DNA of 33,883 nucleotides from positions 1 to 33,883 of the forward strand of contig JAITIX010000026.1 of assembly GCA_031279205.1 (NCBI GenBank), written 5' to 3'. This DNA is from Treponema sp. Its GTDB lineage: Bacteria; Spirochaetota; Spirochaetia; Treponematales; Breznakiellaceae. Of this stretch, positions 4,267-33,198 are shown in pieces. Position 1 is the first letter of the stretch; each line of letters opens with the position of its first letter. The translations under genes were made by a program, and so were the position numbers. The notes under the pieces are model-generated. The model was given only the letters and a program-made list of their open reading frames with translations. It did no database searches and was not told the DNA's origin.

Positions 4267-4620
4267 GCACCTATTCATCGTGCAGGTACATCTATTCGTC
4301 GTGCAGGTACATCTATTCGTCGTGCAGGTATATCTATTTTGCTATACAGGTATATCTATTCGTCGTGCAGGTATATCTATTCGTTGTGCAGGTACATCTA
4401 TTCGTCGTGCAGGTATATCTATTTTGCTATACAGGTACACCTATTCGTCGTGCAGGTACATCTATTCGTCGTGCAGGTATATCTATTCGTCGTGCAGGTA
4501 TATCTATTTTACTATACAGGTACACCTATTCGTTGTGCAGGTACATCTATTCGTCGTGCAGGTATATCTATTCGTCATGCAGGTATATCTATTCGTCGTG
4601 CAGGTACATCTATTCGTCGT
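4267..4620. repeat. Array of 17 tandem 21/22-bp units with an 85-bp higher-order period
   Basis: Units begin at 4267 (degenerate, 19 bp), 4286, 4307, 4328, 4350, 4371, 4392, 4413, 4435, 4456, 4477, 4498, 4520, 4541, 4562, 4583 and 4604 (partial). The plain unit starts GTACATCTATTCG or GTATATCTATTCG and ends GTGCAG. Units 4, 8 and 12 (4328, 4413, 4498) are a distinct 22-bp form containing TTTTGCTATACAG or TTTTACTATACAG. They recur exactly every 85 bp, so the array grew in blocks of four units. There are no spacers, so it is not CRISPR. All plus frames happen to be open, but the 22-bp units shift frame every 85 bp, so protein coding is unlikely. Confidence 0.95.
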
Positions 4621-9586: not shown

Positions 9587-10325
9587 TTACCACGAGGCGT
9601 TTCTCGATGGCTGAGGGAATGTCGATCAGTGAGGCAATAAAGTCTGAGGCATCGGCGGCGGCGACACTGTACACCAGTAAGCCTTCGTCGATGAACTCAA
9701 AGTAAAGCTGGGCAATGAAGCGCCGTTCTTTGATAACTGGTACAAGCAGGTACGTCAGGCTCCTGAAGTTAGTCAGGGTATAACGGAGACCCATTACGTT
9801 GGCGACAAGACTGCCTTCGTAGTAGGAATTACCAAAGTTGGCGTCCTTGAGACGCATATACACGTTCTCCGACACTGGGACCGTGGTGGATGGAGGCGGG
9901 TCGGGAATCGCGATGGTTTTTCGCGCGCTTTCAATACGGGTTGCCTGTTCAAACAGCGGGATATACTTGTCGCGGGTGAACGAATGGTACAAACGCCCCT
10001 CAAGACCGCGTACCTGACTCAAGGCGTTGTACACACGGATAAGCCCCACGCTTTTGTCCAGCGGAAGCACCCGCAGTGATTCCGCCAGAAACGCGGGCTT
10101 GGCGCTGAGTATCGGCTCACTAAGCGGGATGCCCGACCACGAGGCGGGTGTCAGACGCAGGATGGATGCTTGCTCGCTGAAAACAAACAGACCTTCGCTG
10201 GAAAAGACTTTAGCGCGCTGCTCTTCATCCACCTGACATAGCTCGGCAAAAGAACGGCTCTGACTCCACGCGGGAAACACGCCCCATACCAAGCCCGCTA
10301 ATAAGACCCACGCAAGTTTCTTCAT
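9522..10325 (-). CDS. Exported spirochaete protein of unknown function (DUF6675-like)
   Basis: From ATG 10323-10325 the product has 267 residues: a signal peptide (MKKLAWVLLAGLVWGVFPAWSQ) and then a soluble mixed alpha/beta domain, so probably periplasmic. No lipobox cysteine is present at the cleavage site. Segments such as DANFGNSYYEG, TYLLVPV and YSVAAADASDFIAS resemble, from memory, a spirochaete-restricted family (DUF6675); this needs a profile search. The frame continues upstream to 10379, but the signal peptide and the TAATG overlap with the preceding gene's stop fix the start. That overlap implies translational coupling to the sugar-phosphate transferase, hinting at a role near the cell surface. 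Its last 65 bases are antisense to the pepF end. Confidence 0.75.
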   Translation of the reverse strand: MKKLAWVLLAGLVWGVFPAWSQSRSFAELCQVDEEQRAKVFSSEGLFVFSEQASILRLTPASWSGIPLSEPILSAKPAFLAESLRVLPLDKSVGLIRVYNALSQVRGLEGRLYHSFTRDKYIPLFEQATRIESARKTIAIPDPPPSTTVPVSENVYMRLKDANFGNSYYEGSLVANVMGLRYTLTNFRSLTYLLVPVIKERRFIAQLYFEFIDEGLLVYSVAAADASDFIASLIDIPSAIEKRLVVIIDWVVDGIQQAPLTVSEPPH

Positions 10326-11764
10326 TAATACGCTCCTCGTCCTCGAAACACCGCAACAATGGTTTGATACAGTATCCATATATCAAGCCACACCGACCAG
10401 CTTTGCAGATAGTAGGTGTCAAACAGCACACGCTCGTTATAGTCCGTATCAGAACGCCCGGATACCTGCCACAGTCCGCTTAAGCCCGGCTTAACGGAAA
10501 AGATACGCTTGAAGTCTTCACCATACTTTGGCACTTCGTCTTGAACAATGGGACGTGGACCCACAAGGCTCATTTCACCCTTGAGTACGTTGATAAGCTG
10601 GGGGAATTCGTCAAGGCTGGTGCGCCTGAGAAAGCGTCCCACTTTGGTAACACGGGGATCGTTCTTGATCTTGTGGCTTGCTTCCCATTCTTCACGCATG
10701 GTGGGATTTTCGGCAAGCAGTCTCTGTAGAAGCGCATCAGCGTCAATCACCATCGAGCGGAACTTGTACGCCTTAAAGGGCGTGCCGTTACACCCAAGCC
10801 GGCTGTGTCCGTATAATACAGGTCCTGGGGAACTCACTTTGACCACGAGGGCAAGGAGTAAAAGCACTGGCAGTATAACCAGACCAACGATTATCGTGAT
10901 AACAATGTCCATAAAACGTTTTATAGCAAGGTTCCAGTCCATCTTCAAACGGTGGCTGGTAACAAAACCCAGAAGCCCGTCGAAGTCCCGCACCGTCATC
11001 CAGATATTTGTGGCGCGAAAGAAGTCGGGAATCAGCACGTTATACCTGAACGCCGATACCGAGTAGTTGAGCAGGCGCGTCAGTTCCTGCTCGTTAAGAC
11101 CTTGCATTGCCACTATCGCCATCTTGATATTGTAGCGTCGCACCAGTTTCTCCCCCAAGTTTAGGTCGTACAAGATCGGCACCCCGCGATAGGCATCAGC
11201 TTCAGACTCTTCAGACAGGATCAGCACCGGCACGTAGCCGCACTTAACGCTGTCAAGCAGACGATCAATCACCAGCTTACCCAGCGCTCCACTTCCGTAG
11301 ATAACCGCTGGTATGCCGCCCAAGCGCTTTTTCCGCAGCGCGTAGTGTGTAGCGCTCCGACACATAAGCAGTACAAAGGTAGAAAACACGAAGCTGATGG
11401 CAAAGGCGGCTGATATGGCGTCAAGTTGCTGGTTTTCTATGAAGCGGGATAGGATGATGCCGCCATGCACCATGAACGATGCGGTGGTAAAGCACTTGAA
11501 TTCTTCCGACGGCGCGAGCGATACCCCCGGATACAGATTGTATAGCTGAAAGATGAGCAGAAAAACCGGCACATAAGGCCAGTAGGTAACAAAGGACTTG
11601 AAGTTAATGATGGAATGGTCGTAGAGGTTGACGACAAAAAAGCCGGTGCCAAAGGAAAGCATTACCGCGATGAGGTCTGAAAAGACAAGGGCTATGGCTA
11701 TGATAGCAGAACTGGTATGATGATACCTCATACGATACCATGTATCAAATTCAGAAAGTGTCAT
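10325..11764 (-). CDS. Undecaprenyl-phosphate sugar-phosphate transferase (WbaP-type)
   Basis: A 479-residue membrane enzyme that transfers a hexose-1-phosphate from its UDP-sugar to undecaprenyl phosphate, the first step of exopolysaccharide or surface glycan assembly. The N-terminal half has about four membrane helices (about 18-48, 62-80, 95-107, 118-138) and then a Rossmann-like CoA-binding_3-type domain (about 150-275). The C-terminal catalytic domain (280-479) has the re-entrant membrane helix, YKFRSMVIDAD, RRTSLDEFPQLINVLKGEMS, GPRP, KPGLSGLWQVSGRSD and a terminal GRGAY. The sugar cannot be read from sequence. It has a leaderless-type promoter. A 111-bp stretch of this gene is duplicated at 12757-12867. 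Polysaccharide partner genes are absent, so it stands alone with the exported protein downstream. Confidence 0.92.
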   Translation of the reverse strand: MTLSEFDTWYRMRYHHTSSAIIAIALVFSDLIAVMLSFGTGFFVVNLYDHSIINFKSFVTYWPYVPVFLLIFQLYNLYPGVSLAPSEEFKCFTTASFMVHGGIILSRFIENQQLDAISAAFAISFVFSTFVLLMCRSATHYALRKKRLGGIPAVIYGSGALGKLVIDRLLDSVKCGYVPVLILSEESEADAYRGVPILYDLNLGEKLVRRYNIKMAIVAMQGLNEQELTRLLNYSVSAFRYNVLIPDFFRATNIWMTVRDFDGLLGFVTSHRLKMDWNLAIKRFMDIVITIIVGLVILPVLLLLALVVKVSSPGPVLYGHSRLGCNGTPFKAYKFRSMVIDADALLQRLLAENPTMREEWEASHKIKNDPRVTKVGRFLRRTSLDEFPQLINVLKGEMSLVGPRPIVQDEVPKYGEDFKRIFSVKPGLSGLWQVSGRSDTDYNERVLFDTYYLQSWSVWLDIWILYQTIVAVFRGRGAY

Positions 11765-11770
11765 TCAAGA

Positions 11771-11799
11771 ATCATCGTCAAAAGACTTGGTTTTGACAA
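11771..11799 (-). promoter_or_regulatory. Promoter of the sugar-phosphate transferase, with an overlapping forward -35
   Basis: Minus strand TTGTCA (11794-11799), 17 bases, GATGAT (11771-11776), then six bases to the ATG. The same box read on the plus strand is TTGACA (11793-11798), followed 17 bases later by TATGCG (11816-11821). The region is thus a back-to-back promoter whose forward arm no longer leads into an intact gene. It is copied at 12868-12921. Confidence 0.6.
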
Positions 11800-11835
11800 G
11801 AACCATGTTTTCTGATATGCGTTCTTGCGCGAGGG

Positions 11836-11908
11836 CTTGCTTTATAAAAGTAAACACGAAGGCTATCGTGGTTTATGATTCCCTTGACGAGAGTAGCCAT
11901 GTAATCGC
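11836..11908 (+). pseudogene. Flavodoxin 5' fragment, copy 1
   Basis: 11836-11855 matches the DNA upstream of the flavodoxin gene (compare 14315-14335). 11858-11908 matches its codons 2-17 (KAIVVYDSLDESSHVIA in translation). The start codon, Shine-Dalgarno and everything after codon 17 are missing. It is fused to the leader of the following gene. Confidence 0.7.
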
Positions 11909-11926
11909 AAGGGCAAGGAGGTATAT

Positions 11927-12592
11927 ATGGCACTAGCAGAGCAGTCAGGACAGTCGGAGAGGGGACTGACGCGTCAGGATGTCTTGGCAATGTTTCAGGA
12001 GACGGACAGGCGGTTTCAGGAAAGCAAGGAAGAACACGACCGGATGATTGCGGAGGCGGAGAAGCGGTCTCAGGAGGCGGAGAAGCGGTCTCAGGAGTTA
12101 GACAAGGTGATCAGGGAAATGGCTGTGCGGTTTGACCGGCTGGCGAAGAATGTTGGGGGTCTTAACCGGTCTATAGGAGAACTGATAGAAACCTTGATTG
12201 CCGTGCGGCTGTGGGAAAAATTTGCCGCGTATCCGTATCAGCTCAAAAGGGCTTATCAACGGGTTCCCATTTATGACGAATGGCATGAACTGCAGACAGA
12301 CATAGACATTCTGCTTTCTGATACGGAATGGTGTATGGCGGTTGAAGTGAAACGGGAAGCGGATGATAAAGACGTAGACCACCATCTCAAGCGCATGGAG
12401 CTGATACGCCGGTATCCGCCGCTGGAGGTAGTGGGTAAAAAGCTGATTGGAGCAATCGCTGGCGGAATAGTGTCGCCCGATACTGTTAAGTACGCCCATG
12501 AAGTAGGCTTTTTTGTGCTTACACTCGCGGGGGAATCGGTTGCCCTGCTGGATACTCCGGCAGGTTTTGTCGCCAGAGAGTGGCAGGTCTGA
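11927..12592 (+). CDS. Coiled-coil protein with a PD-(D/E)XK nuclease-like domain (DUF3782-like)
   Basis: 221 residues. An acidic, lysine-rich coiled coil (about 15-75), containing a perfect heptad duplication EAEKRSQ, leads into an alpha/beta domain. There TDIDILL (Asp125/Asp127) and AVEVKRE (Glu140-x-Lys142) form a PD-(D/E)XK-type constellation. Such proteins are abundant in cyanobacteria and some spirochaetes, often annotated DUF3782; their function is unknown and nuclease activity here is unproven. AGGAGG is placed well before ATG 11927. The gene is intact but sits inside the rearranged mosaic, flanked on both sides by flavodoxin fragments, which suggests it arrived with or triggered the rearrangement. 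Confidence 0.8.
   Translation: MALAEQSGQSERGLTRQDVLAMFQETDRRFQESKEEHDRMIAEAEKRSQEAEKRSQELDKVIREMAVRFDRLAKNVGGLNRSIGELIETLIAVRLWEKFAAYPYQLKRAYQRVPIYDEWHELQTDIDILLSDTEWCMAVEVKREADDKDVDHHLKRMELIRRYPPLEVVGKKLIGAIAGGIVSPDTVKYAHEVGFFVLTLAGESVALLDTPAGFVAREWQV
12053..12094 (+). repeat. Perfect 21-bp in-frame tandem duplication
   Basis: 12053-12073 and 12074-12094 are identical and encode one extra coiled-coil heptad in the nuclease-like protein. The identity implies a recent event. Confidence 0.9.
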
Positions 12593-12609
12593 GGGATGGA
12601 TAATGAAAG

Positions 12610-12755
12610 GATGTAAGACGCGTTTATATCCAACCTGCTCGGCGACTTTATGAAAGCATCGTAGTTTACGATTCTTTTGACGAGAGCAGCCATGTAATCG
12701 TGGAACGGATCAAGACAACCTTGGGCGCGGATACGCTGAGGCTGGAGCTTGTGGA
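12610..12755 (+). pseudogene. Flavodoxin 5' fragment, copy 2
   Basis: Matches 14344-14495 of the full-length copy. It holds the upstream palindrome (decayed to GATGTAA...TTTATATC), ATG at 12650 without its Shine-Dalgarno, and codons 1-36 (ends LRLELVE). The coding match stops abruptly where transferase DNA of opposite orientation begins. Codon 8 is GAT here, against TAG in the full-length copy. Confidence 0.85.
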
Positions 12756-12756
12756 G

Positions 12757-12867
12757 CGTAGTGCGTAGCGCTCCGGCACATAAGCAGTACAAAGGTAGAG
12801 AACACGAAGCTGATGGCAAAGGCGGCTGATACGGCGTCAGGTTGCTGGTTTTCTATGAAGTGGGATA
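12757..12867 (-). pseudogene. Fragment of the sugar-phosphate transferase gene
   Basis: 111 bp aligning without gaps to 11341-11451 (internal coding region, RFIENQQ...ALR) with a handful of substitutions. It joins directly to a copy of 11767-11820, so 315 bp of the original (11452-11766) is missing at the junction. No start or stop is retained. Confidence 0.92.
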
Positions 12868-12921
12868 AAGAATCATCGTCAAAAGGCTTGGTTTTGACAA
12901 GAACCGCATTTTCTGATATGC
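12868..12921. repeat. Duplicate of the transferase promoter region
   Basis: 54 bp matching 11767-11820 with a few changes. It keeps both arms of the back-to-back promoter. The forward arm now drives the CLC gene; the reverse arm points into the broken transferase fragment. Confidence 0.92.
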
Positions 12922-12922
12922 A
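12894..12922 (+). promoter_or_regulatory. Predicted leaderless promoter of the CLC gene
   Basis: TTGACA (12894-12899), 17 bases, TATGCA (12917-12922), six bases, ATG. The -35 is perfect and the -10 weak. There is no Shine-Dalgarno before the start. Confidence 0.5.
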
Positions 12923-12928
12923 AGATGT

Positions 12929-14269
12929 ATGAGAAAACGGCAACTTCACAAACAGACGCGCCATGCGAGTTTGGCGCGCGCCGCACTTCGCCACTGGTAT
13001 CATTCTCCTTTATTGCTTGTGCTGGAAAGCAGCCTTGTCGGTTTTGTCGCCGGCTTGGTGGTAGTCGCCTTCCGCTATGTTCTGGGTCAAGCTGACAATC
13101 TCAGAGTCTGGCTGTATAACAATCTTTTTCGTATTTCTACGCTTTGGCTTGTAGTTTGGGCTGTTTTTCTCACGCTGATCGGGCTATTTTTCGGTTGGGC
13201 TATTAAAGTCAGACCCATGATCAAGGGAAGTGGCATACCTCAGGTGAAAGGCGTCCTGCTTGGTTATGTTCAGATGCGCTGGATAACGGAACTGCCGCTC
13301 AAAATCATTACCAGCACGCTTGGCTTGGGCGCGGGGCTCTCAATGGGACGTGGAGGCCCATCCCTTCAGATTGGTTCGTATGTTGGCTTGGGTATGCTTC
13401 CTCTGTTCCGTCGTTCCAAAGAAGAAGAGAAAATCCTGATTGTCGCTGCCTCGTCTGCGGGGATCGCGGCGGCATTCAGTGCGCCACTGGCCGGCGTTCT
13501 GTTCGCGCTTGAGGAGCTGTGGCCATCGTTTTCGCCCCTGTTTATCGCCAGCGCCATGGCCGTGTCCATCGCAGCGGAAGCCACAGCCGCGCTTTTCTTA
13601 GGCTCAGGACCGGTCTTCTCCTTCGCGGGCATCATCACGCTGCCGCTTCAGAATATGCACTGGGTGGTTCTTCTGGGAATAGTTTGCGCGATTCTTGGCG
13701 ATGTGTTTAAACGCGCCCTCTACGTTTCGATGGATGTGTATAAGCGCTTTGACATTCCGCTCAGGTTCCGTCCACTTATTCCCCTGCTTTTGTCCATTCC
13801 TCTTGGCTTGTGTCTGTTTGATGTGCTGGGCGGGGGGCATAACCTGATTGAAGCGATTGCCCGCGGCGGCTATTCACTACGTTTGCTCCTGCTGCTTTTT
13901 GTCTGCAAGCTCGTGTTTACCGCGATCTGCTGTGGTTCTAGCACTTCTGGTGGCATCTTTTTGCCCCTGCTTGCCTGTGGCGCGCTTGTTGGCGCGGCAA
14001 TGGGCGAGGCGCTGGAACTGGGCGGCTTTATCAACGATAGCCAGAAGCTGAACTTCATCATACTCGGCATGGCAGCCTTTTTTACCAGCGTGGTCAAAGC
14101 GCCAATCACGGGTATGGTACTGATTCTTGAAATGAGCGGCAATTTTAGCAATATGGGGAACCTTGTGCTGGTCTGTCTGAGCGCCTTTGTCATGTCCAAC
14201 CTCATCATGTCCCATCCTGTGTATAGTGTACTGCTTGAACGAATGTTGCCCCCGCAAAAAACGCATTGA
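12929..14269 (+). CDS. CLC-family chloride channel/transporter lacking the gating glutamate
   Basis: 446 residues with about ten hydrophobic stretches in the inverted-repeat CLC fold; a homodimeric inner-membrane anion pathway. Family motifs are GSGIP (100-104), the helix-N motif GGIFLP (341-346), conserved Glu195/Glu196 in FALEELWP (equivalent to the internal proton glutamate region), and Tyr432 in HPVYSVLL (inner chloride-coordinating Tyr). The GREGP motif reads GRGGP (140-144), so the external gating glutamate is Gly142. In studied CLCs, loss of this residue uncouples chloride from protons, so channel-like conduction is inferred. No C-terminal CBS domains. The start is supported by a promoter six bases upstream. 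A strong hairpin ends the transcript. Confidence 0.93.
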   Translation: MRKRQLHKQTRHASLARAALRHWYHSPLLLVLESSLVGFVAGLVVVAFRYVLGQADNLRVWLYNNLFRISTLWLVVWAVFLTLIGLFFGWAIKVRPMIKGSGIPQVKGVLLGYVQMRWITELPLKIITSTLGLGAGLSMGRGGPSLQIGSYVGLGMLPLFRRSKEEEKILIVAASSAGIAAAFSAPLAGVLFALEELWPSFSPLFIASAMAVSIAAEATAALFLGSGPVFSFAGIITLPLQNMHWVVLLGIVCAILGDVFKRALYVSMDVYKRFDIPLRFRPLIPLLLSIPLGLCLFDVLGGGHNLIEAIARGGYSLRLLLLLFVCKLVFTAICCGSSTSGGIFLPLLACGALVGAAMGEALELGGFINDSQKLNFIILGMAAFFTSVVKAPITGMVLILEMSGNFSNMGNLVLVCLSAFVMSNLIMSHPVYSVLLERMLPPQKTH

Positions 14270-14301
14270 GTGTGTGAACCGAATGTTCGGTTCACACACT
14301 C
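14268..14301 (+). terminator. Terminator of the CLC gene
   Basis: GAGTGTGTGAACCGAA (14268-14283) and TTCGGTTCACACACTC (14286-14301) form a perfect 16-bp stem that overlaps the stop codon. It is followed only by TTGTT, a weak U-run. Confidence 0.75.
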
Positions 14302-14343
14302 TTGTTCAGTAGACTTGCTTTATACAAAAGTTAAATATAAAAA

Positions 14344-14364
14344 GATGTAAATTGCGTTTACATC
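14344..14364. promoter_or_regulatory. Operator-like palindrome upstream of flavodoxin
   Basis: GATGTAAA (14344-14351), TTGCG, TTTACATC (14357-14364): a perfect 8-bp inverted repeat 25 bases before the ATG. The equivalent site in copy 2 (12610-12630) is partly decayed. The regulator is unknown; flavodoxins are often controlled by iron or redox repressors. Confidence 0.55.
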
Positions 14365-14388
14365 CAGTATGCTCATTAAGGAGGCTTT

Positions 14389-14871
14389 ATGAAAGCTATT
14401 GTGGTTTACTAGTCCCTTGATGGGAACAGCCATTTGATTGCGGAACGGATCAAGGCAACGCTAGGCGCGGATACGCTGAAGTTGGAGCTTGTCGAAAGTA
14501 TGCCAAAACAAAGGGTTATGAAGCTGTTTCAAGGTGGGAAACAGGTACTCTTCGGTGATATGCCCGCGCTCAAACCGTACCAGCTCGATGTTTACCAGTA
14601 CGAGTTGCTCATACTCGGCGGGCCTGTGTGGGTTGGTTCCCCTGCGCCTGCGCTTATGAACTTTCTCCAGCAAACCAAGTTTAGTGGCAAAAAGGTCGCG
14701 CTTTTCTGTTGTCATGGCGGTGGTAAAGGCAGGACATTCTCCAAACTGCGGGACGCGCTCAGCGCTAACACCATTCTGGGCGAGATTGATTTTCCTAACG
14801 TAAGCAAACAGGATACCCAAAAACTGAACGCTAAACTGGACGCCTGGCTCAAGGATATTTCTACGCGCTGA
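14389..14871 (+). pseudogene. Flavodoxin, full length but interrupted by TAG at codon 8
   Basis: Starting at ATG 14389, with AAGGAGG in good position, the frame reads MKAIVVY-TAG-SLDGNSHLIAERI and then runs open to TGA 14869-14871, about 160 codons. Flavodoxins are FMN electron carriers. The N-terminal strand and phosphate-binding loop (VYxSLDGNSHLIA), GGPVWVGSPAPALMNFL and FCCHGGGKGRTF mark the fold. Flavodoxins usually have Tyr, Asp or Ser at this position; TAC or TAT to TAG is a single change. A TTG at 14434 could restart translation, but that product would lack the FMN phosphate loop. The rest looks well preserved, so inactivation is recent or the stop is read through. A sequencing error is the other explanation. 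Confidence 0.85.
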
Positions 14872-14885
14872 TATATCTGATATAC

Positions 14886-14925
14886 GGTAGTAGGCTCGTA
14901 CTGGTTCTGGTACGAGCCTACTACC
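14886..14925. terminator. Strong hairpin after flavodoxin
   Basis: GGTAGTAGGCTCGTAC (14886-14901), 8-base loop, GTACGAGCCTACTACC (14910-14925): a perfect 16-bp stem starting 15 bases past the stop. There is no clear U-run, but the position suits a terminator. Confidence 0.7.
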
Positions 14926-15270
14926 CGTTTGCGCCATAGGGGCCTGTTGCGTTTCTCCCTGCGGAGTAACAAAACCCAAAAAGTCAGCTACCATAACCTT
15001 ATGAACGTGGGATTTGTGGATGTAGACTGGAACACCCCTTGCTGTTTCTGGTTGAAATTAAGAGGAATAATTACTCGGAATGGGAGTAGAGTAATAGGGA
15101 CTCATTTGGTAGTAGTAGAAGCATAAGGAAGCTATAAAACATAGCAGAATTAGATTACGGATAAACGGCACATAACTTGATTCGTTGCCGTGGTCTGTAT
15201 GTTTCACTGCTAAAGCGGCTTCTGGGTTCCGTTCCACGATCTATCAAGGAAATCCTGTTCTCAAGCTCTC
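14926..15270. other. Gene-free stretch between flavodoxin and eno
   Basis: No convincing gene. Open frames (for example 65 codons at 14929-15126 plus) lack ribosome sites and family resemblance. The only structure noted is the inverted repeat ATTACTC/GAGTAAT (15070-15076, 15089-15095). The stretch may hold worn remnants of a lost gene. Confidence 0.6.
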
Positions 15271-32979: not shown

Positions 32980-33198
32980 CTAGCGCCCCGCCAAGCGATT
33001 AACAACAACCGCCAAGCCGCAGAAAACAACCGCTAAATCACAGACAAAAACCGCTAAGCCGTAGACAACAACCGCTAAGCCGCAAACAAAAACCGCCAAG
33101 CCGCAGACAAAAACCGCTAAGCCACAGACAAAAACCGCTAAGCCGCAGACAAAAACCGCCAGACCGTAGACAAGGAGGCTTTTATATGACTTATACAC
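32980..33198 (-). CDS. Open frame through the second array: hydrophobic heptad repeat
   Basis: GTG 33198 to TAG 32980-32982, 72 residues built of GLAVFVC-type heptads after a short basic start (MYKSYKSLLVYG). It would be one or two membrane segments. No Shine-Dalgarno precedes it. In the four outer units (33088-33171) every base change between units is silent in this frame, which is odd for non-coding DNA, but the sample is small. I keep it as a low-confidence candidate. Confidence 0.2.
   Translation of the reverse strand: MYKSYKSLLVYGLAVFVCGLAVFVCGLAVFVCGLAVFVCGLAVVVYGLAVFVCDLAVVFCGLAVVVNRLAGR
32983..33171. repeat. Array of nine tandem 21-bp units
   Basis: Units start at 32983 (degenerate), 33004, 33025, 33046, 33067, 33088, 33109, 33130 and 33151. 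The consensus begins AAAAACCGCTAAGCCG and ends CAGAC. There are no spacers. Immediately after the array is AAGGAGG (33172-33178), a few bases before a six-codon frame. The rest of 32936-33500 holds no recognisable gene. Confidence 0.95.

Follow-up and report, generated by a model that had tools for sequence, protein, structure and literature searches.

How did a chloride channel gene of an uncultured Treponema sp. come to be separated from its spacer by a 1,101-bp insert (11821-12921) containing fragments that resemble the neighbouring genes and one nuclease-like gene? The question was raised by a stretch of 33,883 nt (referred to here as the window) on one contig of a draft metagenome-derived assembly, which comprises 150 contigs and is 81% complete. 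The studied genome (G000) was compared with four congeners (G001-G004) in a set of five genomes from the genus, and a wider sample of 60 genomes was drawn from the taxonomic family. The closest records of the locus are Treponema metagenome-assembled genomes with the isolate names Gx481, Nm470 and Cd354, which we take to be termite-gut samples. Literature searches returned no account of either this locus or the nuclease-like gene family. The locus contains the following parts:

10325-11764, minus strand: T, intact WbaP-type undecaprenyl-phosphate sugar phosphotransferase (479 aa; Pfam Bac_transf, 2e-65; NCBIfam TIGR03022, above cut-off), parent of T'
11767-11820, no strand assigned: P, the 54-bp spacer that separates the divergent genes, first copy
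11821-11908, plus strand: A, flavodoxin remnant with the leader from about 11836 and then codons 2-17, carrying an internal deletion
11909-12599, plus strand: nuclease-like gene unit, composed of a leader with ribosome site, an ORF at 11927-12592 (221 aa) and a few bases past the stop
12603-12755, plus strand: B, second flavodoxin 5' remnant, running from the leader to near codon 35 and frameshifted by the loss of one base
12756-12867, minus strand: T', internal transferase fragment, a copy of 11340-11451 (95%)
12868-12921, no strand assigned: P', repeat of the 54-bp spacer, immediately preceding CLC, its position in the ancestral order
12929-14269, plus strand: CLC, intact ClcA-like chloride channel/exchanger (446 aa; Pfam Voltage_CLC, 1e-85; 81-84% identical in the four congeners)
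14389-14871, plus strand: F, downstream flavodoxin, full length, with an in-frame TAG at codon 8

Self-comparison of the region recovered every repeat named in the preliminary description. The transferase copy, reported as 12757-12867 matching 11341-11451, extends one base further (12756-12867 against 11340-11451) and shows 94.6% identity over 112 bp (E = 1.5e-45). The spacer copy P' is 92.6% identical to P over 54 bp (E = 9e-17), and the 315 bp reported as lost between T' and P' correspond exactly to 11452-11766. A genome search for the 111-bp transferase stretch identified two copies, both on the studied contig. The same self-comparison matched A, B and F to flavodoxin, in agreement with the threefold occurrence of its 5' sequence described before. 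The order and orientation of B-T'-P'-CLC are those of a tandem-duplication joint, with flavodoxin linked to the transferase interior and the copies direct. The trinucleotide GTA at the joint of B and T' is common to both parents, and at most a few bases are shared at the joint of T' and P'. No second CLC copy was matched in the genome, which is 81% complete, and deletion could have removed such a copy entirely. Tandemly repeated DNA is also present at 4268-4620 and 32988-33173 of the window.

The unduplicated order was preserved in the relatives. The transferase (minus strand), the 54-bp spacer and CLC (plus strand) are arranged in undisturbed order in all four congeners, and the alignments of G001-G004 are colinear across 11820|12922 without the insert, which is carried by the studied genome alone among the five. 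Because the four congeners align without a break through transferase, spacer and CLC, the insert is regarded as a gain in the studied genome. Flavodoxin follows CLC only in the studied genome and in two of the four congeners (G001 and G004), and enolase comes directly after CLC in G003. The flavodoxin stretch between CLC and enolase (14278-15249) is absent from G003, and G002 contains different genes after CLC; this is a variable spot. Since the congeners keep the transferase-spacer-CLC order, with flavodoxin after CLC in two of them, the fragments derive from neighbouring genes and not from unrelated sites, the alternative that had been named in the preliminary description.

The coordinates given earlier for the flavodoxin copies were essentially right, and their structure required several corrections. 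B matches 14337-14495 with 77% identity (E = 1e-27) and has lost one base, which shifts its frame. A matches B with 88% identity over 43 bp (E = 4e-9), matches the downstream copy weakly (76% over 51 bp, E = 3e-4) and matches the relative G004 with 80% identity (E = 5e-7); its alignment to flavodoxin outscored all of 500 shuffles. The leader of A is clear from 11836 and less clear from 11821. Some 55 bp are then missing from A, the ribosome site and start codon among them, and ACG stands where ATG is expected. F, previously taken as the full copy, contains a TAG at codon 8 (MKAIVVY*SLDGN), where TAT is found in both G001 and G004, whose orthologues are open. All three flavodoxin copies of the studied genome look broken, unless translation of F starts at 14434. 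A and B have seven derived changes in common, including Tyr8 to Asp, Gly12 to Glu and Asn13 to Ser, which indicates that both come from one already decaying remnant. The Gly-Asn of the flavin loop, retained by most of the family relatives inspected, is lost in both. Insertion of the nuclease-like gene between flavodoxin fragments, as proposed earlier, is likely, but a clean insertion is not borne out: the two fragments overlap by 43-50 bp, and a further deletion is present in A.

Private changes were compared by the Fisher test and branch lengths were obtained by maximum likelihood, with small counts throughout. Private changes affect 4 of 110 sites in T' and 2 of 54 in P', giving 6/164 for the two together, against 13/109 in flavodoxin fragment B (p = 0.013). 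The corresponding branch lengths are 0.048 and 0.17, respectively. T' and P' group with T and P by maximum likelihood; they were copied inside the studied lineage, because they have four states in common with the native copies that are found in no congener. B shares none of the four private states of the native flavodoxin (p = 0.08) and does not group clearly with it, the single-tree log-likelihoods for its placement on the flavodoxin tree lying within 1.3. Equal divergence of all duplicated parts is expected of a single event, not of stepwise duplication, and equal divergence was not found.

These results bear unequally on the earlier proposal that a module of transferase, promoter, CLC and flavodoxin was duplicated in tandem and then reduced by deletions. 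The origin of the pieces from neighbours, their order at the joint and the exact 315-bp deletion agree with it, but a single simultaneous duplication of the whole module appears doubtful, the flavodoxin remnant being about three times as diverged as the transferase and spacer remnants. The greater divergence of the flavodoxin fragment, its lack of the native private states and the changes common to A and B indicate two or more steps, or else a flavodoxin allele that had diverged. With so few sites, the unequal divergence may alternatively come from unequal mutation or from gene conversion that later acted on T and T'.

The insert is probably, by a modest preponderance of the evidence, lineage-specific debris of local duplication and deletion with one dispersed paralogue, formed through a multi-step history. 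It is an ordinary small chromosome rearrangement and not a new kind of element. We infer the following order of events. A duplication would first have joined flavodoxin (at about 14495) to the interior of T (at about 11340), so that a second T'-P'-CLC came to follow the first flavodoxin 5' end. Loss of the upstream CLC copy would then have brought P next to the flavodoxin leader, and the observed junction of P with that leader fits such a loss. T' would have lost its 315 bp, and a member of a dispersed PD-(D/E)XK-like family would have entered the flavodoxin remnant, which was partly doubled around the gene to give A and B. The flavodoxin piece would be older or come from a diverged allele, with steps that were not simultaneous, or T' and P' would have been kept similar to T and P by gene conversion. 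Spontaneous bacterial tandem duplications that are later trimmed by deletion are described in a published account (PMC11111574). The likeness to such cases includes direct copies of neighbouring segments, a joint between a gene end and the interior of an upstream gene, and decay of the redundant copies. The present locus differs from them in that remnants only are left, the unequal divergence points to more than one step, and an unrelated dispersed gene lies inside.

The divergence data would also accommodate an import, in which a block consisting of a diverged flavodoxin remnant interrupted by the nuclease-like gene arrived from another Treponema by recombination. On this view T' and P' are stretches of the host that were duplicated where the block integrated, as a single crossover would do. 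The flavodoxin remnant is more diverged than T' and P', lacks native-only states and has three states in common with G001, and the 54-bp direct repeats P and P' bracket the insert. This account is nevertheless rather unlikely: neither this flavodoxin version nor the block was found in any other genome among the 60 sampled from the family, and an outside source is required for a gene that is also present 1.4 kb away.

Repair of a break in P by template switching, with patches copied in one step from flavodoxin, a nuclease paralogue, T and P, would explain why all sources but one dispersed gene lie within 3 kb and why the joints share little sequence. In its favour, too, the private changes acquired by A and B after their split look similar in density to those of T' and P'. 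The changes that A and B share and F lacks imply, against this, that the flavodoxin remnant diverged before A and B separated, and even the closest relatives of the nuclease copy within the genus reach only about 77% identity, which leaves no visible donor. One-step repair is unlikely on this evidence, and the stepwise duplication and deletion described above is preferred to it.

The nuclease-like gene is the sole sizeable sense ORF of the insert. Its 221-aa product matched no Pfam or NCBIfam entry above cut-off, and scans against NCBIfam and PHROG returned mostly coiled-coil noise. An AlphaFold2 model (mean pLDDT 80, with 94-97 through most of residues 110-200) contains a PD-(D/E)XK core and a long N-terminal helix. 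VIA-align placed the model closest to the nuclease domain of NucS/EndoMS, with Z = 10.9 to the archaeal repair endonuclease 2vld (rmsd 2.7, 106 aligned) and Z = 10.7 to 5gke; the lower rows belong to the same superfamily, and the E values from Foldseek alone did not go below 1.3e-3. D127, E140 and K142 are invariant in 25 family sequences. The gene is accordingly described as a putative nuclease, with a predicted coiled coil and PD-(D/E)XK fold. Some members of its family weakly match the Pfam entries DUF3782 and PDDEXK_10; unlike proteins of the DUF3782, PDDEXK_10 or NucS kind, the studied protein has an N-terminal coiled coil and no family match above cut-off. The gene ends at 12578-12592 with ...GAGTGGCAGGTCTGA, compared with GAGTGGTAG in the paralogues, the usual stop apparently now being CAG followed by two extra codons.

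The family is present in 49 of the 60 genomes sampled, with nine matches in the studied genome and 6-21 in the four congeners, some of which are contig-end fragments. Similarity between members is confined to the gene and a short leader, and the stretch shared with the closest paralogue in the studied genome is 11908-12599. Outside the ribosome-site region, the end of A resembles the leader of the nuclease paralogues no better than chance. Four contig pairs of the relatives (L108/L109, L088/L089, L101/L102 and L086/L087) carry near-identical nuclease-family 3' ends (94-99% over 173-463 bp), a pattern that suggests recent copying or conversion among the paralogues. Two copies lie head to tail at G001:C138 (L105, 1-1071), the first cut by the contig end. 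A short repeat in tandem arrays with steps of about 43 bp occurs in the studied genome at C15 (L072, around 10518-10597) and also at C4, C16 and C43.

Presence of the gene varies by place between species. The copies at C15 and C88 of the studied genome are missing at the matching place in comparable congeners; the C88 copy (L066, 5500-6370) is bracketed by a 41-nt near-repeat, partly of terminator-like hairpin sequence, and the apparently empty place in G004 (C4) has flanks that meet with a 4-bp overlap. Together with the predicted fold, this would suit a self-mobile, homing-like gene whose insertion left the flanking duplications as scars. Across 34 nuclease loci, direct repeats were seen at C129 and C88 and a near-repeat at a neighbouring copy in G003, G001:C98 was borderline, and G001:C145 was a slicing artefact. 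A general flanking-repeat rule was rejected, clear direct repeats being found at only three of the 34 loci, one of them being a neighbouring nuclease copy and another involving the hairpin sequence. The flanks of these loci held no clear excess of inverted matches. Because matches are limited to the gene and a short leader and direct repeats occur at few loci, nothing points to a mobile element whose ends are fixed, and self-mobility is very unlikely here. An insertion sequence or transposon was rejected as the source of the insert: no transposase was found in it by ORF listing and protein family search, and a repeat search found no inverted repeats of 25 nt or longer. It is very unlikely that the coiled-coil PD-(D/E)XK family of termite-gut treponemes spreads by cutting new sites, with break repair copying nearby gene pieces into patchwork scars. 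An assembly or binning artefact, for which the fragmented and incomplete metagenomic draft gives some ground, is highly improbable, since the copies differ by 5-23% and are not duplicated contig ends, the joints offer a de Bruijn assembler little shared sequence from which to invent them, and the relatives are colinear on both sides.

The spacer core (GTTTTGACAAG) is identical across the four congeners. A promoter scan identified a leftward promoter-like TTGTCA-17-GATGAT in both P and P', and a possible rightward TTGACA with an extended -10 (TGATATGC), absent from the scan output, was read by eye. T and CLC each retain their own spacer copy, so transcription of the two genes may persist, and the first spacer copy precedes the nuclease-like gene, which has a ribosome site of its own. 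If the rightward promoter is real, T and CLC would each keep a promoter and the nuclease-like gene would gain one. When each neighbour gene keeps its own spacer, superfluous fragments around a divergent promoter can be passed on with both genes left intact. The multi-copy nuclease-like family is a more useful lead than the duplication debris itself. The locus also illustrates how a copied promoter can come to lie ahead of a paralogous nuclease-like gene, and both the inherited fragments and this placement are of local interest for the genome plasticity of termite-gut spirochetes.
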